In this document: positions 36,665-48,212 of the stretch, in pieces
Numbering within the stretch: position 1 is the first letter of the stretch
Layout: every line of letters begins with the position of its first letter
Assembly (NCBI RefSeq): GCF_026011795.1
Contig: NZ_BRVS01000009.1
Span: 1-64,000, forward strand
Reading direction: 5' to 3'
Length of the DNA stretch: 64,000 nt
DNA from: Arthrobacter mangrovi
GTDB lineage: Bacteria > Actinomycetota > Actinomycetes > Actinomycetales > Micrococcaceae
Notes under the pieces: model-generated
The model's database searches: none
What the model was told of the DNA's origin: nothing
Seen by the model: only the letters and a program-made list of their open reading frames with translations
Translations under genes and position numbers: made by a program

Positions 36665-37624
36665 TCAGGACCAGGCACCGCCTCGCTGGACCAGGTTCTC
36701 CGGCTCGGCGCCGCTGCCCAGTGCAGCCAGCTGCCGCTTCAGCAGCCGCACGATCCGCGGCTGGAACGCGGAAGTATCGCCTCCGACGTGCGGAGTGATC
36801 AGGGCGTTCTCCGCCTGCCACAGGGGATGCTCTTCCGGGATCGGCTCGGGATCGAACACATCGATGGCGCAGCTGATCCGGCCCGAGACCACTTCGCGGG
36901 TCAAGGCGTCGGAGTCGACCACGGCGCCGCGCGCCACGTTGACCACGAGCGCCCCGTCCGGCAGGGCCGCCAACACGTCAGCATCAATCAGGCCGCGCGT
37001 CGCGTCGGTCAGCGGCGTAATGACGATCAATACCTCGGCCTCCCGCGCCAGCTCGACCAACTCGTCGCTGCCGTGCACGTGGCCGTGTTCGTCCTCCCGC
37101 GCCTTGCTGCCGACCCGCGTCAGCTCCACCTCGAACGGCAGCAGGCGCTTGGAAATCTCCGCGCCGATGCCGCCAACCCCGACCAGCAGGACCTTCCGGT
37201 CGGCCAGGGACAGCCTGCGCTCGTGCCGCCACCGGGCGTCTCGCTGGTCCCGCGCCGCCGCATCGATGCCCCGCAGCGAGGCAAGCGCCAATCCAACGGC
37301 AAGCTCCGCCGTCGACGCCGCATGCACGCCCGCCGCACTCGCAATGGCAACATCGCTGCCCACCGCCTCAGCCACGCCGTCGACCCCGGTGGTCTGCGCC
37401 TGAACCAGCTTCAGGTTGGTGGCGCGGGAGAGCACGTCCAGGATGTCCTGCGCGTTCAGGTACGGCAGCACCACGGCGTCGATATCGGCCACGTCCACGT
37501 CAGCCGGATCGCCCCGGAAATCCCACACGGTCCCGCGCAACCCGTCCGGCAGCGGCCGCACCGCCTCCAGCAGGTCCTGGTCGGGAAAGCTGATCGTCTT
37601 GATCGCAGCTGCAGAGTCGCTCAT
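36665..37624 (-). CDS. D-isomer-specific 2-hydroxyacid dehydrogenase
   Basis: A 319-residue NAD(P)-dependent dehydrogenase. The nucleotide loop is VLLVGVGGIGAEISKRL; catalytic Arg, Glu and His are in NVARGAVVD, DVFDPEPIPEEHP and ALITPHVGGDT. Substrates could be glyoxylate, hydroxypyruvate, or a phosphoglycerate-like acid. It is on the minus strand with the GntR gene 37 bp upstream, so the two may be cotranscribed, which would tie it to sugar-acid metabolism. Confidence 0.85.
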   Translation of the reverse strand: MSDSAAAIKTISFPDQDLLEAVRPLPDGLRGTVWDFRGDPADVDVADIDAVVLPYLNAQDILDVLSRATNLKLVQAQTTGVDGVAEAVGSDVAIASAAGVHAASTAELAVGLALASLRGIDAAARDQRDARWRHERRLSLADRKVLLVGVGGIGAEISKRLLPFEVELTRVGSKAREDEHGHVHGSDELVELAREAEVLIVITPLTDATRGLIDADVLAALPDGALVVNVARGAVVDSDALTREVVSGRISCAIDVFDPEPIPEEHPLWQAENALITPHVGGDTSAFQPRIVRLLKRQLAALGSGAEPENLVQRGGAWS

Positions 37625-37661: not shown

Positions 37662-38399
37662 TTAGTTTTCAGCCGCCGACGGAACATGCGTCAGGGGCGA
37701 CCCTGCCGACCTTAGCGGTCGATGGGCGGGATCGCCTTCTTCGAACGCCTGGGCGAAGCGCATATAGGCAAGGGACAGGTGCTGGCGCATCGCTTCCTCC
37801 GCCCCCATGGGGTCACAGTCCCTGATGGCCTGCCATACCTGGCGGTGTTCCTCGAGGGTTATGGCACCGCCGATGTCCGCGGGGTAAAGGCGGAAGATGT
37901 GAAGGTGACAGTGCGTCTGGCTGTACGCGTTACGAACTACGTCGTTCCGGGTCGCCGACATAATCAGGTCATGGAATCTCGTATCGTGGCTCACCAGGTC
38001 ACCACGGATATCCGCTGCTGATTCGGTGGCCTCTTCGAACTGCGCCAACTCTTTTTCCAGGCGACGGGCTGGATTCTCCAGCCGGTCAACCGCCGCCGAC
38101 CGGGCGGCCCACGGTTCGATGAGTAGCCTGAATTCGAAAAGGTCGCGCAACTCTGCCAGGTCCAGCAGGGCAGTCGTGCTGTAGCCGCGGCCGGAGGTGG
38201 CCACTACGAGGTTGTCCCCCTGCAGCCGATGCAGCGCCTCGCGGACGGGTGTCGGCGAGACGCCGAGTTGGCGGGCGACAGCTTCAATGTTGACCCTGCT
38301 CCCCGGCGGGATCCGATTCTCCAGAATCTGGGCGCGCAACTGTTCGTAGACCTCGCCAGCGGACAGCTTGATCCTGATTGACTCCTGGGACTCTCCCAC
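37662..38399 (-). CDS. GntR-family (FadR/FCD subfamily) transcriptional regulator
   Basis: A 245-residue regulator. The winged helix is at about 12-75 (VYEQLRAQILENRIPPGSRV, VARQLGVSPTPVREALHRLQ) and the C-terminal FCD domain (LFEFRLLIEPWAARS, HDTRFHDLIM, with metal-ligand-like Asp/His residues) binds small acids. The GTG at 38399 follows GAAGGAACCGC; an upstream ATG at 38489 has no ribosome site. It is divergent from the sugar-acid operon and a palindrome lies between them, so it very likely represses that operon until the acid is present. Confidence 0.88.
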   Translation of the reverse strand: MGESQESIRIKLSAGEVYEQLRAQILENRIPPGSRVNIEAVARQLGVSPTPVREALHRLQGDNLVVATSGRGYSTTALLDLAELRDLFEFRLLIEPWAARSAAVDRLENPARRLEKELAQFEEATESAADIRGDLVSHDTRFHDLIMSATRNDVVRNAYSQTHCHLHIFRLYPADIGGAITLEEHRQVWQAIRDCDPMGAEEAMRQHLSLAYMRFAQAFEEGDPAHRPLRSAGSPLTHVPSAAEN

Positions 38400-38501
38400 G
38401 CGGTTCCTTCCGTCCTTTGACAGGTCGCCTCCTGCCCTCGGCCTGCCGGCAGTGCGCCTCTTCAATCTCTTGAGTAGCACCCCTTGCATTGTTGTTTAAA
38501 T

Positions 38502-38529
38502 CATATAGGGTTTTCACGAATCCTATATG
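38502..38529. promoter_or_regulatory. Probable operator of the GntR regulator
   Basis: catatagg (38502-38509) and cctatatg (38522-38529) form a perfect inverted repeat, 20 bp centre to centre (two turns), in the AT-rich gap between the divergent GntR and Ldh2 genes. The right arm overlaps an ATG at 38527 that is therefore unlikely to be the Ldh2 start. Confidence 0.7.
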
Positions 38530-38550
38530 GAACGTTACGGAGAACACATT

Positions 38551-39600
38551 TTGGAACCCACTCGCTACTCCACCGAAGAACTGGTCCGTTTCTCTTCAGC
38601 AGCCCTCCAGCACGTCGATGTGCCGGCTCCCGACGCCGATCTCACCTCGCGTTCACTGGTCGAGGCAGACATGCGCGGCATCAATTCCCATGGCCTGCTG
38701 CGCCTGCCGCTCTACGTCTCAGCTATTGAGCAGGGCGGCATCAATCCGAATCCCCAGTTGGACTGGCGCGCTGACACAGGGTCGGCTGCACTGCTTGACG
38801 CGGACGGCGCCCTTGGCCAGATCGCGATGCGAGCCGCTACCGACTACGCGCGATCGCATGCCTCCGACCGCGGCGTAGTTGCGGTCGCCGTGCAGAACAG
38901 CAGCCACTTCGGCGCAGGCATCTTCTGGTCCGACCGCCTGGCTGCCGCCGGGCTGATCGCCTTCCTCACCTCCACCACTGGTCCCACCGTGGCACCCTAT
39001 GGCGGCGTCGCCAAGGTCTTCGGAACCAACCCGCTGACGATTGCAGCCCCCAGCGCGGCGGGCCATCCCCTGACGGCCGACATGGCCACCAGTACCGGCG
39101 CCTACGGCAAGGTAATTGCTGCCAAGAACGAGGGGGCCGCGATCCCGGAGGGGTGGGCTGTTGATCCCGCCGGGGAGCCGACAACCGATCCCGTTCAGGC
39201 CATGGCCGGTGCACTCATACCGTTCGGGGGACATAAAGGTTCGGCCGTGTCGGCTCTCCTCGAAGCCGTCGCCGCGTCCCTGGGCACCGGTACTTTCGCC
39301 CACGAGACCGAAGACATCTGGTCCAATCCCGCGTCCCGCATGAATACTGGACACCTGCTCGTCGCCCTCGATCCGGCGGCGTTCACGGGCAGGCGGCATA
39401 CCGAAGAACGCGTCGCCCGGCTTCAGGACCGCATCCGGAAATCCGGCGCAAACGGCGCATCCGTCCACGCTCCCGGGGACCTCGAGTACGCAAGGGGCCA
39501 GGCGAACCGGGAGGTCGTGGCGCTGGCGCCCTCCACGACCCAACTGCTGAACCGACTGGCGGAGCACTTGGGCCTTCCCCCGGCCGAACGCGCTGCCTGA
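38551..39600 (+). CDS. Ldh2-family (malate/L-lactate-type) NAD(P)-dependent oxidoreductase
   Basis: A 349-residue Ldh2/MdhC-type dehydrogenase. Motifs: EADMRGINSHGLLRLP, QNSSHFGAGIFW, YGGVAKVFGTNPL and IPFGGHKGSAVS. The TTG at 38551 has CGGAG at 38538-38542; the ATG at 38527 has none and sits in the operator. The family reduces 2-oxo acids and related compounds such as 2,3-diketogulonate. It is the first gene of the sugar-acid operon. Whether it acts on the substrate acid, on lactate or on an intermediate is unknown. Confidence 0.83.
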   Translation: MEPTRYSTEELVRFSSAALQHVDVPAPDADLTSRSLVEADMRGINSHGLLRLPLYVSAIEQGGINPNPQLDWRADTGSAALLDADGALGQIAMRAATDYARSHASDRGVVAVAVQNSSHFGAGIFWSDRLAAAGLIAFLTSTTGPTVAPYGGVAKVFGTNPLTIAAPSAAGHPLTADMATSTGAYGKVIAAKNEGAAIPEGWAVDPAGEPTTDPVQAMAGALIPFGGHKGSAVSALLEAVAASLGTGTFAHETEDIWSNPASRMNTGHLLVALDPAAFTGRRHTEERVARLQDRIRKSGANGASVHAPGDLEYARGQANREVVALAPSTTQLLNRLAEHLGLPPAERAA

Positions 39601-39659
39601 TCCACCAGCACCTCACTTGCCGTAAAGAAAACGCATCAACAGCCAAAGGAGAATCAACA

Positions 39660-40721
39660 ATGTCCAGTTCACGAACAACGGGAAACCCAGCACAGCAGTC
39701 AAAGAGCGGCCGGAAGAAAGTGCTTGGACTGTCCCTAGCGGCCGCGGCCACGGTCATGCTGGCCGGGTGCGGGGTCGGCGGTCCGGTGCAGGCCGGCGGG
39801 TCCAACGCCGCCGGCGCCAACGGAGACAAGGTCCTTCGGCTGGCCCACGTCTACGAGGCGGGGCATCCGGTCGAGAAATGCGGCGTCGGAACGCTCAAGG
39901 AGGAGCTTGAAGGTAGCGGCATCACGGTAGAGAGTTACCCGGCAGCCCAGCTCGGGAGCGAGGCCGAATCCCTCGAGCAGGTAGCCACCGGCGGACTCGA
40001 CATGGCGATTGCAGGTCCTTCCTTCCTGGGAGTCTGGCACGAGCCCGCCGCCGTCCTGGACGGCGCCTACCTCTTCAAGGACGTCGACCACTTCGTGGAA
40101 ACCATCGAAGGTCCGGTGATGAAGAAGGTCTACGACGACATGAACGCCGAGACGGGAATCAAGGTTCTCTCCGGCTGGTACTACGGCACCCGGCATGTCA
40201 CCTCCAACAAGGAGATCAAAGGCCCCGAAGACATGCAGGGCATCAAGATCCGCACGCCCGACGCTCCCCTGTATTTGACCAACACCAAGATCATGGGCGG
40301 CACAGCGACCCCGATGGCTCTGGACGAGGTCTACCTCGCCCTGCAGCAGGGTGTGATCGACGCGCAGGAGAACCCTGTTCCGACCATTGCCTCCGCAAAG
40401 CTCAACGAGGTCCAGGAGTACATCAACTTGACCGGTCACATGATCCAAGGCGTCAATATCGTGACCGGCTCCGCCCTGTACGACTCCCTGCCCGATGACC
40501 AGAAGACCGCGCTCGATTCGGCCATGGACGCCGCCTCGGACAAGGTCCGCGAGTGCGTCGAGACGGAGGAGAAGGAGACCCTCGAGGAGTGGAAGAAGGG
40601 CAGCGGCATCAAAGTCAACGAGGATGTCGACCGCGACGTCTTCGCGGAGCGCGCCCGCGACATGCTGCCCAGCGAAGTTTCGTGGGGCGACCTCTACAAG
40701 CAGATCCAGGATGCCAAATGA
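39660..40721 (+). CDS. dctP: TRAP transporter substrate-binding lipoprotein (DctP family)
   Basis: A 353-residue binding protein. The signal peptide ends in the lipobox LAGCGV (lipid-attached, as in Gram-positives). The TRAP fold shows GWYYGTRHVTSNKEIKGPED and MQGIKIRTPDAPLYLT, where the conserved Arg binds the carboxylate of the ligand. AAAGGAG upstream. The last four bases overlap dctQ (ATGA). TRAP transporters take up organic and sugar acids with sodium, so the likely ligand is an aldonic acid used by the enzymes downstream. Confidence 0.9.
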   Translation: MSSSRTTGNPAQQSKSGRKKVLGLSLAAAATVMLAGCGVGGPVQAGGSNAAGANGDKVLRLAHVYEAGHPVEKCGVGTLKEELEGSGITVESYPAAQLGSEAESLEQVATGGLDMAIAGPSFLGVWHEPAAVLDGAYLFKDVDHFVETIEGPVMKKVYDDMNAETGIKVLSGWYYGTRHVTSNKEIKGPEDMQGIKIRTPDAPLYLTNTKIMGGTATPMALDEVYLALQQGVIDAQENPVPTIASAKLNEVQEYINLTGHMIQGVNIVTGSALYDSLPDDQKTALDSAMDAASDKVRECVETEEKETLEEWKKGSGIKVNEDVDRDVFAERARDMLPSEVSWGDLYKQIQDAK

Positions 40722-41269
40722 TTCCGGAACATCCCGATGAACCTGACTTCCTCGAGTCCCGCAGCCCGCTGCTGCGAACCGTAGTCAACGCCGAGCGGGT
40801 GGCGGCAGCAGCGCTGCTGAGCCTCACCCTCGTCCTGGTGCTGATTCAGGTGATCAGCCGCTACGTCTTCTCCAGCCCGCTGTCGTGGACGGAAGAACTC
40901 GCCCGCTTCGCCCTGGTGTGGCTGACGTTCATTTCGGCCGGATTCGTCATGGCCCGGCGACTGCACGTCACGGTCGATCTGGTAGCGGCGAAGCTCAGCA
41001 AGCGCGCGGCCGTGCTGATGGATGCCTTCGCCATGCTGGTGGTCCTCGTCGTCTCGGCTGCCATGACGGTGGCGGGAACCCAGTTCGCCCTTTCGGCTGC
41101 CCGTCTGCACGCACCTGCTACGGACATTCCCATGAGCGTGGTTTACACCGCAGCTGTCCTCGGCTTCGCACTGATTTTCCTGCACGGCGTGCTGAACACC
41201 TTCGTCAATCTCAGGCACCCGGAAAAAGTACCGGAGGCCATGGAAAACCTCGAAAAAGAAGCCATCTGA
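40718..41269 (+). CDS. dctQ: TRAP transporter small permease (DctQ)
   Basis: A 183-residue protein with four hydrophobic segments. The DctQ signature around SPLSWTEELARFALVWLTF is clear. Its ATG overlaps the dctP stop by four bases. It forms the membrane complex with DctM. A short charged C-terminus (EKVPEAMENLEKEAI) follows the last helix. Confidence 0.9.
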   Translation: MIPEHPDEPDFLESRSPLLRTVVNAERVAAAALLSLTLVLVLIQVISRYVFSSPLSWTEELARFALVWLTFISAGFVMARRLHVTVDLVAAKLSKRAAVLMDAFAMLVVLVVSAAMTVAGTQFALSAARLHAPATDIPMSVVYTAAVLGFALIFLHGVLNTFVNLRHPEKVPEAMENLEKEAI

Positions 41270-41279
41270 GGGAACACTC

Positions 41280-42560
41280 ATGACACTGACCTTAATGCTC
41301 GTGGGCCTGCTGGTCCTGCTCGCCCTCCGGGTCCCCGTGGCCATCGCGCTGCTGGTGCCGTCCCTCATCTACGTCACCATGGACCCCACGGCCTCGCTGG
41401 GCATCGCCGTCCAGCAGACCACCTCCGGCGTCAACAGCTTTGCCATCCTCGCCGTCCCCCTGTTCATCCTCCTAGGCAACGTGGCGAACGTCTCCGGTGT
41501 TTCGGACCGGCTCTACTCCACGGCCGTCGCCTACCTCGGCCACATCCGCGGCAGCCTCGGCTACGTCAACATCGCCACCAGCTTCGGATTCTCCTGGATG
41601 AGCGGCGCCGCCATCGCAGACGCCGCGGCCATGGGCAAGATCCAGGTTCCCGCCATGAAGCAGCGCGGGTACAAGGAGGAATTCAGCCTGGGCATCACCG
41701 GTGCGTCGTCGCTCATCGCCCCGATGATTCCGCCCAGCATCCCCGCCATCATCTACGCCGTCACGGCAGGGGTCTCGGTCGGAGCGCTCTTCATGGCGGG
41801 TATCATTCCGGCGATGGTGCTGATCCTGTGCCTGACCTTCATGGTCTGGTGGCTGACCCGCAAGGACCACCACCTCATCATGCCGAAGGCATCCTGGAGC
41901 GAGCGCGGCCGGGCCCTCCTGGGGGCGCTGCCGGCCTTCGGCGCCGGCGTGGTCATCCTCGGCGGCATCCTCAGCGGCATTTTCACGCCGACCGAAGCGT
42001 CCGGCATCGGGGTGCTCTACATCTTCATCCTCGCGCTGATCTACGGGTCCCTGACCTGGCGGAAGACGTACCGGATCCTGCTTGGATCGGTGGAAACTTC
42101 GGGGTCGGTCCTGCTGATCGTTGCCGCAGCCGCCCTGTTCGGGTGGGTTTTGGCCCGTGAACAGGCGCCCCAGCTGGCAGCGGACTTCATCCTGAACTTC
42201 ACGAACCACCCGATCGTGTTCCTCATCCTCGTGAACGTCCTGCTGCTGATCATCGGCTGCGTGCTGGAGCCGACGGCCGCCATCCTGATCCTCGTTCCCG
42301 TCCTCGGACCTGTCGCCGAGACCTTCGGCCTCAGCCCGATCCATTTCGGCGTCATCGTCATCTTCAACCTGCTGATCGGGCTGCTCACGCCGCCGGTGGG
42401 ACTGGTCCTGTTCGTGCTCTCCAGCGTGACAAGCATTCCCGTCCCCAAGGTCATCAAGGGCGTACTGCCCTTCTTCATCCCCATGCTGGCCACGCTCCTG
42501 GTCATCACCTTTGTCCCGGCCCTCAGCCTCTGGCTACCGTCCCTGCTCGGCTTCGCCTAA
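41280..42560 (+). CDS. dctM: TRAP transporter large permease (DctM)
   Basis: A 426-residue channel subunit with about 12 hydrophobic segments. Motifs GFSWMSGAAIADAAAMGKI and SLIAPMIPPSIPAIIYAV are typical of DctM. It starts 10 bases after dctQ with GAGGGA upstream. It completes a P-Q-M set followed immediately by the sugar-acid enzymes, so the transporter and pathway are one unit. Confidence 0.92.
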   Translation: MTLTLMLVGLLVLLALRVPVAIALLVPSLIYVTMDPTASLGIAVQQTTSGVNSFAILAVPLFILLGNVANVSGVSDRLYSTAVAYLGHIRGSLGYVNIATSFGFSWMSGAAIADAAAMGKIQVPAMKQRGYKEEFSLGITGASSLIAPMIPPSIPAIIYAVTAGVSVGALFMAGIIPAMVLILCLTFMVWWLTRKDHHLIMPKASWSERGRALLGALPAFGAGVVILGGILSGIFTPTEASGIGVLYIFILALIYGSLTWRKTYRILLGSVETSGSVLLIVAAAALFGWVLAREQAPQLAADFILNFTNHPIVFLILVNVLLLIIGCVLEPTAAILILVPVLGPVAETFGLSPIHFGVIVIFNLLIGLLTPPVGLVLFVLSSVTSIPVPKVIKGVLPFFIPMLATLLVITFVPALSLWLPSLLGFA

Positions 42561-42580
42561 ACACACGAAAGGCATTTACC

Positions 42581-43909
42581 TTGTCGAAAATCACCTCTGT
42601 CCGCACCGAAGACATCCGCTTCCCCACCTCGCTGGATCTGGACGGTTCCGACGCCGTCAATGTCGATCCGGACTACTCCGCCGCCTACGTCAGCATCAAC
42701 ACGGATGACGAATCCGGCCACGGCTTCGTCTTCACCTGCGGCCGCGGCAACGAGATCATCACCGCAGCCATCGAATCGTACGGTCAGCTGCTGGTAGGCC
42801 GTGACCTGGACGAACTCGTCAGCGACCTTGGCGAATCCTCGCGTCGGCTGATCCATGATTCCCAGCTGCGCTGGCTCGGTCCCGAGAAGGGTGTCTCGCA
42901 CATGGCCGCCGGAGCGCTGGTTAACGCCCTGTGGGACATCCGTGCCAAGCGCGAGCAGAAGCCGCTGTGGCGGCTGCTCAGCGAGATGCCGGCCGAGGAA
43001 GTCGTCAACGCAGTCGACTTCACGCACATCAGGAACGCCCTCACTCCCGACGAGGCCCTCGAGATCCTGCGCCGCGGCGAAAACGGAAAGGCAGGGCGGA
43101 TCGAAGAGCTGCAGCGCTCCGGTTACCCCGCGTACACCACCACGCCGGGCTGGCTCGGCTACAGCGACGAAAAGCTGGTCCGCCTCAGCAGGGAAGCCGT
43201 CGCCGATGGGTTCGGCATGATCAAGCTCAAGGTCGGCGGGGACCTGAACGAGGACCGGCGCCGAATGAAGTTGGCCCGGGAGGCGGTAGGCGAGAACGTC
43301 AAGATTTCCATCGACGCCAACCAGCGTTGGGAAGTCCAGGAGGCCATCGACTGGGTCAACGAACTGGCCGAATTCAATCCGTGGTGGATTGAAGAACCCA
43401 CCAGCACGGACGAGATCCTCGGCCATGCCGCGATCCGCCGGGGTGTTGCCCCCGTCAAGGTCGCCACCGGTGAAGCCGTCGCCAGTCGAATCATTTTCAA
43501 GCAACTGCTCCAGGCCGGCGCCATCGACGTCATGCAGATCGATTCCACGCGCGTGGCAGGTGTCAACGAAAACATCGCCAACCTGCTCCTGGCGGCCCGG
43601 TTCGATACGCCCGTATGCCCGCACGCCGGAGGCGTCGGTCTGTGCGAACTGGTGCAGCACTTCTCCTTCTTCGACTACGCCGCAGTCAGCGGCAGCATGG
43701 AAAACCGGATGATCGAATTCGTCGACCACCTGCACGAGCACTTCATTGAACCGGTACGTGTGGAAGGCGGCCGCTACCTTGCGCCCCAAAAGCCGGGCAC
43801 AGGAGCCGAAATGCTCAAGGACTCGCGTGACCGCTGGACGTTCCCATCCGGCTCGGGCTGGCAGCAGGTCGGGGACCGGGCTGCAGTAACCGGGAGCAGC
43901 AACCGATGA
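42581..43909 (+). CDS. L-fuconate dehydratase-type enolase-superfamily enzyme
   Basis: A 442-residue mandelate-racemase-group enolase. The full set of L-fuconate dehydratase segments is present: RFPTSLDLDGSDAVNVDPDY near the N-terminus, the KxK acid/base motif in MIKLKVGG, metal ligands in ISIDANQRW, IEEPTS and ATGEAVASR, and the His base in CPHAGGVGLCE. TTG start with GAAAGG upstream. It dehydrates L-fuconate and, in known homologues, also D-arabinonate to 2-keto-3-deoxy acids. Its stop overlaps the next gene (ATGA). The substrate acid should enter through the TRAP system. Confidence 0.88.
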   Translation: MSKITSVRTEDIRFPTSLDLDGSDAVNVDPDYSAAYVSINTDDESGHGFVFTCGRGNEIITAAIESYGQLLVGRDLDELVSDLGESSRRLIHDSQLRWLGPEKGVSHMAAGALVNALWDIRAKREQKPLWRLLSEMPAEEVVNAVDFTHIRNALTPDEALEILRRGENGKAGRIEELQRSGYPAYTTTPGWLGYSDEKLVRLSREAVADGFGMIKLKVGGDLNEDRRRMKLAREAVGENVKISIDANQRWEVQEAIDWVNELAEFNPWWIEEPTSTDEILGHAAIRRGVAPVKVATGEAVASRIIFKQLLQAGAIDVMQIDSTRVAGVNENIANLLLAARFDTPVCPHAGGVGLCELVQHFSFFDYAAVSGSMENRMIEFVDHLHEHFIEPVRVEGGRYLAPQKPGTGAEMLKDSRDRWTFPSGSGWQQVGDRAAVTGSSNR

Positions 43910-45375
43910 CGACTACCTCAGCAGAACAGGCCGCCGCGCAGATCGAGGCCGCCCACAAGGCCTACGAGCAGTCCCGGGATGAAACACCGCAGACCCGCGC
44001 CGCCTGGCTCGAGGCCCTCGCCGGCGGGCTGGAACAGCATGCCGACGAACTGGTCGGAATCGCAGCACGCGAGACCCATCTGGCAGAGGGCCGGCTCCGC
44101 TTCGAACTCCAGCGCTCCGTCTTCCAGTTGCGGCTCTTCGGTGACGAAGTGTTCCGCGGCGAGAACCTGGACGCGACCATCGACCACGCCGACCCCGAGT
44201 GGGGCATGGGCCCCCGGCCGGACATCCGCAGGATCAATGTGCCGCTCGGCGTCGTCGGCGTCTTTGGCGCCTCCAACTTCCCCTTCGCCTTCAGCGTCAT
44301 GGGCGGCGACAGCGCCTCGGCCCTGGCGGCAGGCTGTGCCGTTGTGCATAAGATCCACGACGGCCACATCGAGCTGGGCCTTCGCACCGGGGAAATCGCC
44401 GCCGAAGCACTGGCCGCGGCGGGCGCGCCCACCGGTCTTTTCTCGACGGTCAGCGGCCGGGCGGCCGCCGAGGCCCTGGTGGACCACCCTCTCGTGACGG
44501 CCATCGGCTTCACCGGATCCACGGCCGGAGGACGGGCGCTGTTTGACCGGGCATCCCGGCGGCCGGTCCCCATCCCGTTCTACGGTGAACTCGGCAGCAT
44601 CAATCCGGTCTTTGTCACCGAGGAAGCCTGGAACCGGCGCAGCGAAGAGATCCTCGCCGGTTATGCGGGCTCATTCACCATGGGCATGGGACAGTTCTGC
44701 ACCAAGCCGGGACTGCTGTTCGCACCCGCCGGCAGTTCGGAGGAGATCGCGCAGGTCCTCGGCCGCGAGCTCGCCGGCAAGCCCATGGCTCCCCTGCTCA
44801 GCCCCCGGCTCCGCGAGGGCTTCGACGAGGCTCTCGCAGGCGTCCGGAACGCCGAAGGCGTGGATGTGCTCATCGACGGGGACGGAGCCGAAGCACCCTC
44901 TCCCACCGTGCTCCTGACCACGTCCGATGCCGTCCGCGAGCAGCCCGGGCTGCTGGAGCAGGAGATGTTCGGGCCAGCCACCCTGATCATCCAGTACAAA
45001 CCGGGAACCGACCTGGCGGAACTGGCGACGCTTCTCCAGGGGCAGCTGACGGCGACCGTCCAGGCGGAACCGGATGAAGACCTCGCGGCATTGCTGACGG
45101 TCCTGCGCGAAAGGAGCGGCCGTGTGCTCTGGAACGCTTGGCCAACAGGGGTCACCGTGACCTATGCGCAGCAGCACGGCGGTCCCTATCCGGCGACGAC
45201 GGCCCCCAACACGACCTCCGTGGGAACCGCCGCCATCCGACGGTTCATGCGGCCCGTTGCCTACGATTCCTTCCCGTCCGCCCAGCTGCCCCGGGCGCTG
45301 CAGGATGGGAACCCCTGGGCAATCGGGCGGCGCGTGGACGGTCGCTGGGAGCACCCTGCTGAAGGAGGCAACTGA
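43906..45375 (+). CDS. 2-oxoglutarate semialdehyde (2,5-dioxopentanoate) dehydrogenase
   Basis: A 489-residue aldehyde dehydrogenase of the KGSADH subgroup: GVFGASNFPFAFSVMGGD, GFTGSTAGGRALFDRA, PFYGELGSINPV (catalytic Glu) and GMGQFCTKPG (catalytic Cys). This group oxidises 2-oxoglutarate semialdehyde to 2-oxoglutarate in pentose, uronate and aldarate pathways. Its presence beside a fuconate dehydratase shows that a pentonate branch is likely used too. ATG overlaps the dehydratase stop. The length matches the family. Confidence 0.83.
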   Translation: MTTTSAEQAAAQIEAAHKAYEQSRDETPQTRAAWLEALAGGLEQHADELVGIAARETHLAEGRLRFELQRSVFQLRLFGDEVFRGENLDATIDHADPEWGMGPRPDIRRINVPLGVVGVFGASNFPFAFSVMGGDSASALAAGCAVVHKIHDGHIELGLRTGEIAAEALAAAGAPTGLFSTVSGRAAAEALVDHPLVTAIGFTGSTAGGRALFDRASRRPVPIPFYGELGSINPVFVTEEAWNRRSEEILAGYAGSFTMGMGQFCTKPGLLFAPAGSSEEIAQVLGRELAGKPMAPLLSPRLREGFDEALAGVRNAEGVDVLIDGDGAEAPSPTVLLTTSDAVREQPGLLEQEMFGPATLIIQYKPGTDLAELATLLQGQLTATVQAEPDEDLAALLTVLRERSGRVLWNAWPTGVTVTYAQQHGGPYPATTAPNTTSVGTAAIRRFMRPVAYDSFPSAQLPRALQDGNPWAIGRRVDGRWEHPAEGGN

Positions 45376-45376
45376 T

Positions 45377-46573
45377 ATGGAACGCTTCGCTCCGCAAGAC
45401 ATATTGCCGAAGGATTCCGTCCCGGCCCGGCTGGTCGGCCGGGTCTGGGATCCGGAATCGGGCGGCCCCCGAGTCGTCGCGGTCAGGGGGGAAGACGTCT
45501 ACGACATCACCGGCCACGCCCGCACCGTCGCGGATCTCATGGAACAGGCCGATCCCGGCCGGATCGTGGCGGGGGCCCTGGACCGGCCGCGCTGGAAACT
45601 GGCCGAGCTGGTCGAGGCTTCATGGAACAAGGACACCGATCGCCCGCACCTGCTGGCTCCGGTAGACCTCCAGGTCATCAAGGCCTGCGGCGTGACCTTC
45701 GTGGAAAGCATGGTCGAGCGCGTTATCGAGGAACGCTGCGCCGGCGATGCCAACAAGGCCGCCGAGGTCCGGGAACTGGTCGGCAAGGCGTTGGGCGGCA
45801 GCATATCCTCGCTCCGGCCCGGTTCGGAAGCGGCCATGCAGGCCAAGAAGGTGCTGCTCTCCGAAGGCATGTGGTCCCAGTATCTCGAAGTCGGCATCGG
45901 CCCGGATCCGGAAGTATTCACCAAGGCTCCGGTGCTGTCCGCTGTTGGTTTCGGCACCGACGTCGGCCTGCCGACCTTCTCCTCGTGGAACAATCCCGAG
46001 CCGGAATTGGTCCTCATCGTCGACTCGCGCGGCAGCGTCCGCGGGGCAACCCTCGGCAACGACGTCAACCTGCGGGACGTCGAGGGGCGCAGCGCTTTGC
46101 TGCTCGGCAAAGCCAAGGACAACAACGCTTCCACCGCATTGGGCCCCTTCATCCGGCTCTTCGACGGGGACTTCACCCTGGACACCCTCCGCCAGGAGGA
46201 AATAACCCTCGAGGTGCGGGGACAGGACGGCTATCTCCTGGAGGGCCGCAACAACGTCGCAAAGATCAGCCGGCCCTTCGAGGAACTGGTCCGCGCCGCC
46301 TGCGGCCGCCACCACCAGTATCCTGACGGCTTTGCCCTCTTTACCGGCACGCTGTTCGCCCCGACCCAGGACCGGGACGCGTCCGGCCAAGGCTTCACGC
46401 ATCACCCCGGCGACACGGTAGCTATCAGGAGTGAGCACCTTGGAGCGTTGGTCAACCGCACCGGCGTGACGGAAGAGCTGCCGCCGTGGACCTACGGCAT
46501 CAGGGATCTGTTCGCCTATCTCCAAAGCCCGGCAGCAGCTGGCACACCTCAACAGGCTGGAAGGAACTCATGA
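45377..46573 (+). CDS. FAH-family 2-keto-3-deoxy-pentonate dehydratase-like enzyme
   Basis: A 398-residue fumarylacetoacetate-hydrolase-fold protein, longer than the hydrolases. It carries GNDVNLRDVEGRSALLLGKAK, which recalls Caulobacter XylX and archaeal KdaD, enzymes that dehydrate 2-keto-3-deoxy-xylonate or -arabinonate to 2-oxoglutarate semialdehyde. Acidic metal ligands lie in EPELVLIVDSRG and GNDVNLRD. AAGGAGG sets the ATG at 45377. Its product would be the substrate of the dehydrogenase just upstream. Its stop overlaps the next gene by four bases. Confidence 0.75.
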   Translation: MERFAPQDILPKDSVPARLVGRVWDPESGGPRVVAVRGEDVYDITGHARTVADLMEQADPGRIVAGALDRPRWKLAELVEASWNKDTDRPHLLAPVDLQVIKACGVTFVESMVERVIEERCAGDANKAAEVRELVGKALGGSISSLRPGSEAAMQAKKVLLSEGMWSQYLEVGIGPDPEVFTKAPVLSAVGFGTDVGLPTFSSWNNPEPELVLIVDSRGSVRGATLGNDVNLRDVEGRSALLLGKAKDNNASTALGPFIRLFDGDFTLDTLRQEEITLEVRGQDGYLLEGRNNVAKISRPFEELVRAACGRHHQYPDGFALFTGTLFAPTQDRDASGQGFTHHPGDTVAIRSEHLGALVNRTGVTEELPPWTYGIRDLFAYLQSPAAAGTPQQAGRNS

Positions 46574-47430
46574 AACTCGTACGCTACGGCGCCCCCGGTG
46601 CGGAAAAACCCGCCGTCATCGCCATGAACGGCGACGGCACCGAGCACGCCTATGATCTGTCACCCGTGACCGACGACATCACGGGTGAATTCCTGGCCGC
46701 GGATGGCCTCGCGGCCGCCAAGAGGGCCCTCGACGCCGGCGACCTGCCAACGGTCGAGCTCGACGGCCAGCGCCTGGGCGCACCCATCGCCCGTCCGTCG
46801 GCCATCATCTGCGTCGGCATGAACTACGCCGAACACGCCGCCGAGTCCGGATCGGCGCCGCCCACCGTGCCGATCATCTTCTTCAAGACCCCGAACACCG
46901 TGGCCGGGCCGGACGATGAAGCCTTCATCCCCCGCAACAGCACCAAGACGGACTGGGAAGTCGAACTCGGCGTCGTCATCGGCAAGCGTGCCAGCTACCT
47001 CGAATCCCCGGAGCAGGCTGCCGGGCACATCGCCGGTTACCTGACGGCCAACGATCTCTCGGAGCGCACCTTCCAGATCGAAGATTCCGGCGGCCAATGG
47101 TCGAAGGGCAAGTGCGCCCCGGGGTTCTCGCCCCTTGGCCCGTGGCTGGTGCCGGCCGAGAACGTAGATGCCAACAATCTGCGGCTGCGCAGCTGGGTGA
47201 ACGGCGAGCCGCGCCAGGATTCCACCACCGCCGACATGATTTTTCCGGTCGACTTCCTGGTCCACCACCTGAGCCAGTACCTGACCATGGAGCCGGGCGA
47301 CGTGATCCTCACGGGAACACCCCAAGGCGTGGCCTTGTCCGGCAAGTACCCGTACCTGAAGGCCGGCGACATAGTCGAGATCGAGATCGAGGGACTCGGC
47401 CGCCAGCGCCAGGCATTCGCCCAGGCATGA
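46570..47430 (+). CDS. FAH-family diketo-acid hydrolase (2,4-diketo-3-deoxy-L-fuconate hydrolase-like)
   Basis: A 286-residue FAH hydrolase. Metal ligands and the catalytic His are in CVGMNYAEHAAES, and the two Glu in TDWEVELGVVIG; GYLTANDLSERTFQ and VILTGTPQGVALSG are family hallmarks. Short FAH proteins of this type split 2,4-diketo-3-deoxy acids into pyruvate and a second acid (L-lactate from the fucose series). ATGA overlap with the upstream FAH dehydratase. Having two FAH enzymes of different length side by side supports two separate reactions. Confidence 0.8.
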   Translation: MKLVRYGAPGAEKPAVIAMNGDGTEHAYDLSPVTDDITGEFLAADGLAAAKRALDAGDLPTVELDGQRLGAPIARPSAIICVGMNYAEHAAESGSAPPTVPIIFFKTPNTVAGPDDEAFIPRNSTKTDWEVELGVVIGKRASYLESPEQAAGHIAGYLTANDLSERTFQIEDSGGQWSKGKCAPGFSPLGPWLVPAENVDANNLRLRSWVNGEPRQDSTTADMIFPVDFLVHHLSQYLTMEPGDVILTGTPQGVALSGKYPYLKAGDIVEIEIEGLGRQRQAFAQA

Positions 47431-47456
47431 GCAATCATCGGCAGGAAAGGAGCGGC

Positions 47457-48212
47457 ATGACCAAGGAAATGGAAGGCCTGGTCGCCCTCGTGACCGGAGG
47501 TGCCTCCGGTATCGGCGCGGCTACCGCGGACAGGCTCGCAGACCTGGGTGCACACGTCGCCGTACTCGACCTGGCCCCGGAGTCAGCCAGCAAACGGCAC
47601 TTGGCCGTGCGGTGCGACGTATCGGACGATGCCTCCGTGCGGGCGGCGGTCCAAACCGTCGTCGAACACTTTGGCCGGCTGGACGTCGTCGTCAATAACG
47701 CGGGCGTCGGCGCGCAGGGAACAGTGGAAGACAACGACGACGACGAATGGCACCGCGTCTTCGACATCAACGTCATCGGGATGGTCCGGGTGAGCCGCGC
47801 GGCGTTGCCGCACCTCCGGAAGTCGCCCGCGGCCGCCATCGTCAACACCTGTTCCATTGCGGCCACGGTCGGGCTGCCGGCCCGGGTTCTCTATGGCGCG
47901 TCGAAGGGTGCCGTCCTGTCGATGACCATGGCGATGGCCGCAGACCACCTGCGCGAGGGCATCAGGGTCAACTGCGTCAAACCCGGGACGGCGGACACTC
48001 CCTGGATTGGCCGGTTGCTGGAGAAGGCCGAGGACCCCCAGGCGGAGCGCACGGCCCTCGAGGCGCGACAGCCGCACGGCCGGCTGGTGCAGCCGGACGA
48101 GGTAGCGGCCGCCGTGGCCTACCTGGCCTCCCCCGCCGCCGGGTCCACGACCGGTACCGCGCTGGAGGTCGACGGCGGCATGCAGGCCCTGAGGCTTCGG
48201 CCCGCCGGCTAA
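47457..48212 (+). CDS. SDR dehydrogenase, probable 2-keto-3-deoxy-L-fuconate dehydrogenase
   Basis: A 251-residue short-chain dehydrogenase. TGGASGIG cofactor loop, NNAGVGAQG, catalytic Ser in NTCSIAATVG and YGASKGAV. AAAGGAG precedes the ATG. SDRs of this size in L-fucose and L-rhamnose non-phosphorylating pathways oxidise C4 of 2-keto-3-deoxy acids, giving the substrate for the hydrolase upstream. It is the last gene of the operon, followed by a hairpin. The assignment rests on operon logic; SDR specificity cannot be read from the sequence alone. Confidence 0.78.
   Translation: MTKEMEGLVALVTGGASGIGAATADRLADLGAHVAVLDLAPESASKRHLAVRCDVSDDASVRAAVQTVVEHFGRLDVVVNNAGVGAQGTVEDNDDDEWHRVFDINVIGMVRVSRAALPHLRKSPAAAIVNTCSIAATVGLPARVLYGASKGAVLSMTMAMAADHLREGIRVNCVKPGTADTPWIGRLLEKAEDPQAERTALEARQPHGRLVQPDEVAAAVAYLASPAAGSTTGTALEVDGGMQALRLRPAG

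Follow-up and report, generated by a model that had tools for sequence, protein, structure and literature searches.

A TRAP-fed operon of Arthrobacter mangrovi that probably joins two routes of sugar-acid breakdown behind one shared dehydratase

The window analysed here, a stretch of 64,000 nucleotides (positions 1 to 64,000 of contig NZ_BRVS01000009.1, assembly GCF_026011795.1) from the 4.43 Mb genome of the actinobacterium Arthrobacter mangrovi, carries on its + strand, between positions 38527 and 48212, an operon of nine intact and co-directional genes. These encode an Ldh_2-family oxidoreductase, a complete tripartite ATP-independent periplasmic (TRAP) transporter (DctP, DctQ and DctM), an enolase-superfamily dehydratase of the L-fuconate dehydratase type (FucD), an aldehyde dehydrogenase, a long and a short protein of the fumarylacetoacetate hydrolase (FAH) family, and a short-chain dehydrogenase/reductase (SDR) (Table 1). 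We consider it rather probable that both D-arabinonate and L-fuconate are taken up by means of this one operon, which a single GntR regulator would control, and that they leave through two exits behind the single FucD. The operon itself is real and conserved, and this two-branch reading is the most likely account of it. In the proposed pathway, the TRAP transporter would take up acids of C2-left, C3-right, C4-right configuration, that is, D-arabinonate, L-fuconate and perhaps their 2-keto forms or C2 epimers, and the one FucD-type enzyme would dehydrate both acids. The five-carbon (C5) product, D-2-keto-3-deoxypentonate (D-KDP), would be converted by the long FAH protein to 2-oxoglutarate semialdehyde and by the aldehyde dehydrogenase to 2-oxoglutarate; the six-carbon (C6) product, L-2-keto-3-deoxyfuconate (L-KDF), would be oxidised at C4 by the SDR and then cleaved by the short FAH protein to pyruvate and L-lactate. 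The C6 product could not leave through the long FAH protein, because its dehydration would give a ketone at C5 and not an aldehyde, but the SDR may also accept D-KDP, yielding pyruvate and glycolate. What we observed are the genes, their catalytic residues, their conservation, the repeat ahead of the operon and a tree in favour of repeated recruitment; the substrates, the reactions and the binding of the regulator are all inferred.

All the genes named in an earlier, sequence-only reading of this DNA (TRAP P-Q-M, FucD, aldehyde dehydrogenase, long FAH, short FAH, SDR) are present, and the family assignments within the operon hold by Pfam and PDB sequence matches (for the SDR, PDB only). That reading overlooked the Ldh_2 gene, which lies inside the interval it covered (38502-48212), and so left its role unaccounted for; a GntR/FCD regulator and a D-2-hydroxyacid dehydrogenase, both just outside that interval, are further additions. 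It had also described nearly all genes as joined by start-stop overlaps, which overstates the packing: the junctions, in operon order, measure 59, -4, 10, 20, -4, 1, -4 and 26 nt, so that three of the eight overlap by 4 nt, one leaves a gap of 1 nt and four leave gaps of 10-59 nt. A promoter scan found no promoter, and predicted terminators were at the level of shuffled sequence (9 versus a mean of 6.9). The arrangement is more than chance: further genomes, and a plasmid of Corynebacterium, have this set of genes as well. As far as gene content goes, the long FAH, aldehyde dehydrogenase, SDR and short FAH genes of two branches do stand behind one dehydratase.

FucD matches the L-fuconate dehydratase of Xanthomonas campestris (PDB 2hxt/1yey) with E 8e-174, and its residues KLK 215-217, D245, E271, E298, D321 and H348, presumably the KxK motif, the metal ligands and the histidine, are in register with the solved X. 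campestris enzyme. It is the only FucD in the genome, where the next homologue is only 31% identical, and the earlier proposal of two downstream branches sharing one FucD agrees with this and with the residues of the two FAH proteins. Enolase-type FucD is reported to accept D-arabinonate and to convert part of it to the epimer D-ribonate (PMC6336799). For the long FAH protein (COG3970 type), the best structural match is the solved FAH protein 9kkt (2e-117), for which no paper naming it was found in the open-access literature; Sulfolobus solfataricus KdaD (2q18) follows at 4e-19. Its Glu179, Glu208, Glu210, Asp229 and Lys247, which align with residues of KdaD that we take to be the base glutamate, the metal ligands and the lysine, are invariant in 21 of 21 aligned sequences. 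The role of the KdaD-type base glutamate is mentioned in PMC6336799. Where hydrolases of the family have NYxxHxxE, the long protein has GVTFVES and thus lacks the hydrolase HxxE; overall, its residues fit a keto-deoxy-pentonate dehydratase. The neighbouring gene had been called a 2-oxoglutarate-semialdehyde dehydrogenase (KGSADH)-type gene: PDB matches and motifs uphold the aldehyde dehydrogenase family, and the probable substrate is deduced from gene context.

In the other exit, the short FAH protein has its best PDB match in 8gsr (3e-63) and keeps HxxE, the catalytic pair of the hydrolases (PMC6336799), both in the window, where it reads NYAEHAAE, and in 20 of 20 orthologues, residues that support a diketo-acid hydrolase. 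The best PDB match of the SDR is 4DQX, which according to passages of PMC11199699 is close to the type-2 L-KDF dehydrogenase. Arg143 and Arg204 of the window protein correspond to Arg170 and Arg231 of 4DQX, and the triad S133-Y146-K150 is present. Arginine occupies the Arg143 position in 19 of 19 orthologues; all 19 also contain an [ASL]-Arg-Gln motif resembling the one at Arg204, which was sought anywhere in the sequence. Elsewhere the work of the two branches is divided: most FucD loci without TRAP (29 of 32) have no SDR/short-FAH pair, and in the two genomes looked at in this respect (G575 and G781; G and L numbers are our handles for genomes and loci), a separate cluster of FucD, SDR and short FAH genes is kept, adjoining in G575 an alpha-L-fucosidase, an aldo/keto reductase and an amidohydrolase, which ties the pair to L-fuconate. 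An apparent fusion of SDR and short FAH in L063 was rejected as an artefact, its reading frame crossing a stretch of N.

Table 1. The operon and its flanking features in the window.
Feature	Position	Strand	Remarks
D-2-hydroxyacid dehydrogenase (2-Hacid_dh_C)	36665-37624	-	behind the regulator; motifs NVARG, DVFDPEP, PHVGG
GntR/FCD regulator	37662-38489	-	divergent from the operon; Pfam
Inverted repeat ATATAGG-N12-CCTATAT	38503-38528		candidate operator of the GntR regulator
Ldh_2 (PF02615), L-2-hydroxyacid/2-keto-acid oxidoreductase	38527-39600	+	first operon gene; Pfam
DctP, TRAP solute-binding protein	39660-40721	+	Pfam, PDB sequence matches
DctQ, TRAP small permease	40718-41269	+	Pfam
DctM, TRAP large permease	41280-42560	+	Pfam
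FucD, enolase superfamily, L-fuconate dehydratase type	42581-43909	+	TTG start; Pfam, PDB
Aldehyde dehydrogenase, probable 2-oxoglutarate-semialdehyde dehydrogenase	43906-45375	+	PDB 1eyy, 3v4c; Cys/Glu motifs
Long FAH (COG3970 type), probable D-KDP dehydratase	45377-46573	+	PDB, residues
Short FAH, 2,4-diketo-3-deoxy-acid hydrolase type	46570-47430	+	PDB 8gsr; HxxE
SDR, type-2 L-KDF/D-KDP 4-dehydrogenase	47457-48212	+	placed by PDB matches only

The long FAH gene, searched at E<=1e-40 in a phylum sample of 396 genomes and a family sample of 395, was found in only three of the former (the window's own genome included), so that it is not general in the phylum, and in 67 of the latter; its nearest named relatives are in Arthrobacter and other Micrococcaceae. 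We surveyed 73 regions around such genes (71 of the 72 other family matches plus two phylum matches) together with 80 named relatives, the best among at least 584, in sum 153 loci with 136 distinct long-FAH genes, calling gene presence by identity cut-offs of our own setting (at least 65% for a FucD orthologue). An orthologous FucD accompanies 49 of the 136; the other 87 are without one. Together with the window, L194, L195 (Rhodococcus opacus PD630) and L198 (G806), these make 53 actinobacterial loci, and the pairing of long FAH with FucD, which the sequence-only reading proposed to look for in genome neighbourhoods, thus recurs. The aldehyde dehydrogenase is present in 48 of the 49 and missing from L134 and also from L198. 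A TRAP transporter is found in 21 of the 53 loci, and 16 of these also have the SDR and short FAH genes (exceptions: L073, with the SDR only, L075, L107, L134 and L198), as against three of the 32 non-TRAP loci (L047, L096 and L100), the remaining 29 being without the pair; a major facilitator superfamily (MFS) permease homologue occurs in 26 of 31 non-TRAP loci and in L195. No alignment column of FucD or long FAH separates TRAP from non-TRAP loci at 90% in both groups; in the aldehyde dehydrogenase, three columns do. A complete Ldh_2-TRAP-FucD-aldehyde dehydrogenase-long FAH-GntR-SDR-short FAH set lies on the Corynebacterium deserti plasmid pCdes1 (L194, NZ_CP009221.1, 4946-15422), which is 31 kb long and typed as mobilizable.

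The second branch has probably been recruited repeatedly, judging from the sequences of the SDR/short-FAH pairs, because the pairs inside such operons do not form one clade. A tree of the joined SDR and short FAH proteins splits the merged operons into several groups: one of the window's genus, a large one including the Corynebacterium plasmid, one of L096 and L100, one in which L072 and L077 stand with the stand-alone pair of a Nocardiopsis genome (G821), and the merged pair of L047, which is sister to the pair in the L-fucose cluster of its own genome. Monophyly of the 18 merged pairs against three pairs from separate clusters was rejected (approximately unbiased test, p 4e-27), the groups having been set by gene context after an SDR-only tree had been seen. 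On the FucD tree, the minimum number of state changes is five for the pair, one for TRAP and two for Ldh_2 (51 of the 53 loci), and some of the five may be losses. Gene order also varies, being long FAH-short FAH-SDR in the window and long FAH-GntR-SDR-short FAH in L062, and in L072 the SDR-short FAH pair lies on the far side of FucD.

With up to three mismatches allowed, the inverted repeat between regulator and operon, ATATAGG-N12-CCTATAT, occurs in all 21 TRAP loci and in 30 of the 32 FucD loci without TRAP, and a GntR homologue (at least 44% identity) in 18 of 18 TRAP loci checked and 29 of 31 non-TRAP loci. With up to two mismatches, it is found in 45 of the 53 FucD loci and in none of the 87 long-FAH loci without FucD; since nine of these 87 have it at up to three mismatches, single sites at three mismatches mean little. 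The 12-nt spacer is strict (17 sites at up to two mismatches when the 20 TRAP loci other than the window are counted, with zero or one for each spacer of 6-11 and 13-20 nt), and by their listed coordinates the sites in TRAP loci precede the first gene of a unit. From this position and co-occurrence, the GntR protein is likely to bind the repeat. The only site with fewer than three mismatches in the window's genome is the one at 38503-38528 (sites at three mismatches are no more frequent than in the reversed control, 11 versus 16 per strand), and the regulon is therefore probably this locus alone; no sugar dehydrogenase or lactonase elsewhere would then stand under the same operator, which fits uptake of the acid itself. 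A single regulon spanning separate branches is disfavoured, as the operator is absent before distant short-FAH genes (none of seven regions scanned, in G781, G782, G630, G806, G821, G545 and G575, has it within three mismatches). In L047 (7859), L096 (13204) and L100 (12402), a second operator site, at two mismatches, precedes a gene for an ABC binding protein of the SBP_bac_3 family, after which L047 and L096 have genes for a zinc alcohol dehydrogenase and another SDR; L057 (4891) has the permease homologue. This ABC system is possibly an extra co-regulated importer.

Uptake of the acid itself, as suggested earlier, is plausible because Arg178 of DctP, which aligns with Arg125 of VcSiaP, is invariant in 15 of 15 sequences and because the genome has no second operator site with fewer than three mismatches. 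The likeliest substrates would be D-arabinonate and L-fuconate. A TRAP system of Halomonas is predicted for L-fuconate/L-galactonate in passages of PMC5507952, which also cite a Chromohalobacter TRAP transporter with dual specificity for L-fuconate and L-galactonate and quote Vetting 2015 for TRAP uptake of L-fuconate. The fold search with DctP gave no ligand: the top matches were mostly sialic-acid binders, identity was 22-29% among the 50 matches listed, and the model was of moderate quality (predicted local distance difference test score, 74.6).

Several observations weigh against an operon serving D-arabinonate and L-fuconate through these two exits. Besides the sialic-acid binders nearest to DctP, the short FAH protein scores 274.5 bits against a cut-off of 500 for NCBIfam NF053535 and so does not reach this L-rhamnonate-pathway equivalog, and the aldehyde dehydrogenase reaches 76.3 and 78.2 bits against NCBIfam KGSADH cut-offs of 770 and 750. 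Of 131 extracted long FAH proteins, 32 did not match a strict motif for the base glutamate, and 10 did not match the PEPE motif of the metal ligands. Five of the 21 TRAP loci are without a complete second branch, and the four searched genomes among them each have a short-FAH homologue (56-72%) elsewhere, free of the operator. In a tree of 38 rows, moreover, the window FucD belongs to a clade of 32 long-FAH-linked FucDs that has full support, and two L-fucose-cluster FucDs from the same bacterial family stand outside it; L-fuconate may therefore be a minor substrate or none. The last point favours D-arabinonate as the only substrate, with both exits acting on D-KDP (Route II to 2-oxoglutarate, Route III to pyruvate and glycolate), as Watanabe 2019 proposed for Herbaspirillum, where the SDR can oxidise both D-KDP and L-KDF (PMC6336799); because of this SDR, the strict assignment of C6 to the SDR and C5 to the long FAH made earlier is not forced. 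We nevertheless judge an operon for D-arabinonate alone unlikely, as D-KDP would have no need of a second exit, L-fucose clusters contain homologues of the SDR/short-FAH pair, and the merged pair of L047 is sister to the L-fucose pair in its own genome. Import of some other acid with this configuration, for example D-altronate or L-galactonate, or of a 2-keto sugar acid, which would make the C5 and C6 labels wrong, would suit the best structural and sequence matches of DctP, which name no such ligand as D-arabinonate or L-fuconate (their titles are partly incomplete), yet seems quite improbable to us with no kinase or aldolase among the nine operon genes. The products of D-altronate and L-galactonate are 2-keto-3-deoxyhexonates with a C6 hydroxyl, which are normally phosphorylated or cleaved by an aldolase.

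Within the two-branch operon, the Ldh_2 protein has to be accommodated. C2 of D-arabinonate and C2 of L-fuconate are both L-configured. The abstract of PMC5695019 describes PF02615 members such as ComC as interconverting 2-hydroxy and 2-keto acids; the window protein, with 239.7 bits against a cut-off of 500, does not reach NCBIfam NF040650 (L-sulfolactate dehydrogenase ComC), and it perhaps starts at TTG 38551 rather than ATG 38527, since GGAGA lies 7 nt ahead of the TTG and other orthologues start nearby. Ldh_2 is present in 20 of the 21 TRAP loci (exception, L107) and in none of the 32 non-TRAP loci, which on the FucD tree amounts to about one evolutionary change (one independent pair, no significance), so that its tracking of TRAP is a lead and not a proof. 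Most likely it acts at C2 of the imported acid, in 2-keto reduction or epimer salvage, with L-lactate oxidation as runner-up. We prefer the former because 17 of 17 family genomes with a full-length orthologue (at least 49% identity) carry it in this cluster and because three genomes with the SDR/short-FAH pair (G767, G610 and G575) have no Ldh_2 match genome-wide, in a search that matched other genomes; the phylogenetic evidence is thin, TRAP having changed once on the tree. An L-lactate dehydrogenase closing the C6 branch by converting L-lactate to pyruvate, which we hold to be possible but doubtful, would explain why Ldh_2 is found in 16 of 16 TRAP loci bearing the pair and why the L107 cluster lacks Ldh_2, SDR and short FAH together (no Ldh_2 match in its genome), an absence that also speaks against a role on the imported acid; that genome has, however, a short FAH elsewhere (58%), which qualifies the joint absence. 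Against the lactate role, Ldh_2 is kept in four of the five TRAP loci without the complete pair (the three searched of these four have a short FAH elsewhere), and among four independent locus pairs differing in the SDR/short-FAH pair, too few for significance, it follows the pair in one and is unchanged in three. Outside such clusters, G721 has an Ldh_2 homologue in two pieces (L202, 9473 and 9898) with no operon genes near, perhaps a broken copy, and an Agrococcus metagenome-assembled genome (L155, 4136-12950) has long FAH, GntR and Ldh_2 beside a TctCBA importer, in a stretch that showed no FucD. The latter arrangement would fit an enzyme that oxidises a 3-deoxy acid directly to KDP, possibly a simpler way to the same intermediate.

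A more specific form of the role at C2 takes in the D-2-hydroxyacid dehydrogenase behind the regulator. An L-specific Ldh_2 and a D-specific dehydrogenase might together form a two-enzyme C2 epimerase for sugar acids, an idea that we offer tentatively and think rather unlikely to be right: D-ribonate or 6-deoxy-L-talonate, imported or formed as FucD by-products, would be oxidised to the 2-keto acid and then reduced to D-arabinonate or L-fuconate, which FucD could dehydrate. Both transcription units, the operon headed by Ldh_2 and the regulator with the D-2-hydroxyacid dehydrogenase, flank the same operator. An orthologue of the latter enzyme (at least 60%) occurs in three of the 53 FucD loci (the window, L094 and L095), all of the same genus and the only ones with both enzymes; elsewhere, Ldh_2 could reduce imported 2-keto acids. 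In two same-family clusters (L203 and L204), GntR and TRAP genes lie with a distantly related Ldh_2 (35-37%) and also with a D-2-hydroxyacid dehydrogenase (28-31%), a grouping like that near the window operon. A known parallel is the SlcC/ComC sulfolactate racemase, in which two dehydrogenases act in turn (passages of PMC12421959), SlcC being of the D-2-hydroxyacid family (passages of PMC6303947) and ComC of the Ldh_2 type by its NCBIfam and PDB names, as beside the window operon; it acts on sulfolactate, and an extension to sugar acids would be ours. No description of such an upstream sugar-acid step by these two enzymes was found in the literature searches made. If the epimerase operates, the range of the operon would embrace both C2 epimers and by-product D-ribonate would be salvaged. 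The two enzymes hint at a reaction on sugar acids further upstream.

The window operon shares FucD, SDR and short FAH, leading to pyruvate and lactate, with the Xanthomonas-type L-fucose pathway, reportedly described by Yew in 2006 and represented here by clusters of Pantoea (L197) and Ruegeria (L196). These differ in having L-rhamnose-mutarotase-type genes, an aldo/keto reductase or second SDR plus amidohydrolase, and a transporter for sugars; their annotated stretch contains neither a long FAH nor an aldehyde dehydrogenase. FucD-aldehyde dehydrogenase-long FAH clusters of Arthrobacter (L041) and R. opacus PD630 (L195) share orthologous FucD, aldehyde dehydrogenase, long FAH, GntR and operator, but an MFS permease replaces TRAP and Ldh_2, and the SDR/short-FAH pair is usually absent. 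Three gammaproteobacterial loci, two of them from Halomonas (L182 and L190) and the other L188, have a more distant FucD (54-55%) beside or near the long FAH, with TRAP and Ldh_2 homologues; in L182 and L188 the next gene encodes an FAD-linked oxidase. In L182, from strain HL-48, the subject of PMC5507952, the long FAH adjoins FucD, the TRAP set, Ldh_2, an SDR and an FCD regulator, but the proteins are 33-57% identical to those of the window and the cluster has an extra SBD_N protein, PdxA, an HpcH aldolase and the FAD-linked oxidase. Of the non-phosphorylating routes distinguished in PMC6336799, namely I (aldolase), II (KDP dehydratase and semialdehyde dehydrogenase) and III (4-dehydrogenase and hydrolase), II and III occur together in cluster 1 of Herbaspirillum huttiense, which combines a COG3970 D-KDP dehydratase, an SDR acting as D-KDP/L-KDF 4-dehydrogenase and a D-arabinonate dehydratase (PMC6336799). 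Its dehydratase is of the UxaA/GarD family, unlike the enolase of the window, the assayed hydrolase (C785_RS20550) sits outside the cluster by its locus tag, and the host is not an actinobacterium. The earlier statement that no described operon with both branches was known is thus anticipated by this cluster, albeit with another dehydratase family, and both the joining of the branches (PMC6336799) and TRAP uptake of L-fuconate (passages of PMC5507952) have precedent. A word search of the open-access literature, outside which most subscription papers lie, found no paper on operons of this kind in Actinobacteria. The chemistry, then, is known and the combination a variant; what is added here is its repeated assembly, the plasmid-borne copy and the operator.

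Taken together, these observations suggest that two known non-phosphorylating sugar-acid routes came to share one promiscuous dehydratase on more than one occasion, apparently several times independently. Whether enzyme promiscuity drives the fusion of operons can thus be tested in a bacterial family that is easy to grow, and the operator offers a direct test of inducer identity. For its host, a soil-type actinobacterium, it seems that sugar acids are imported and leave by two exits behind a single shared enzyme.

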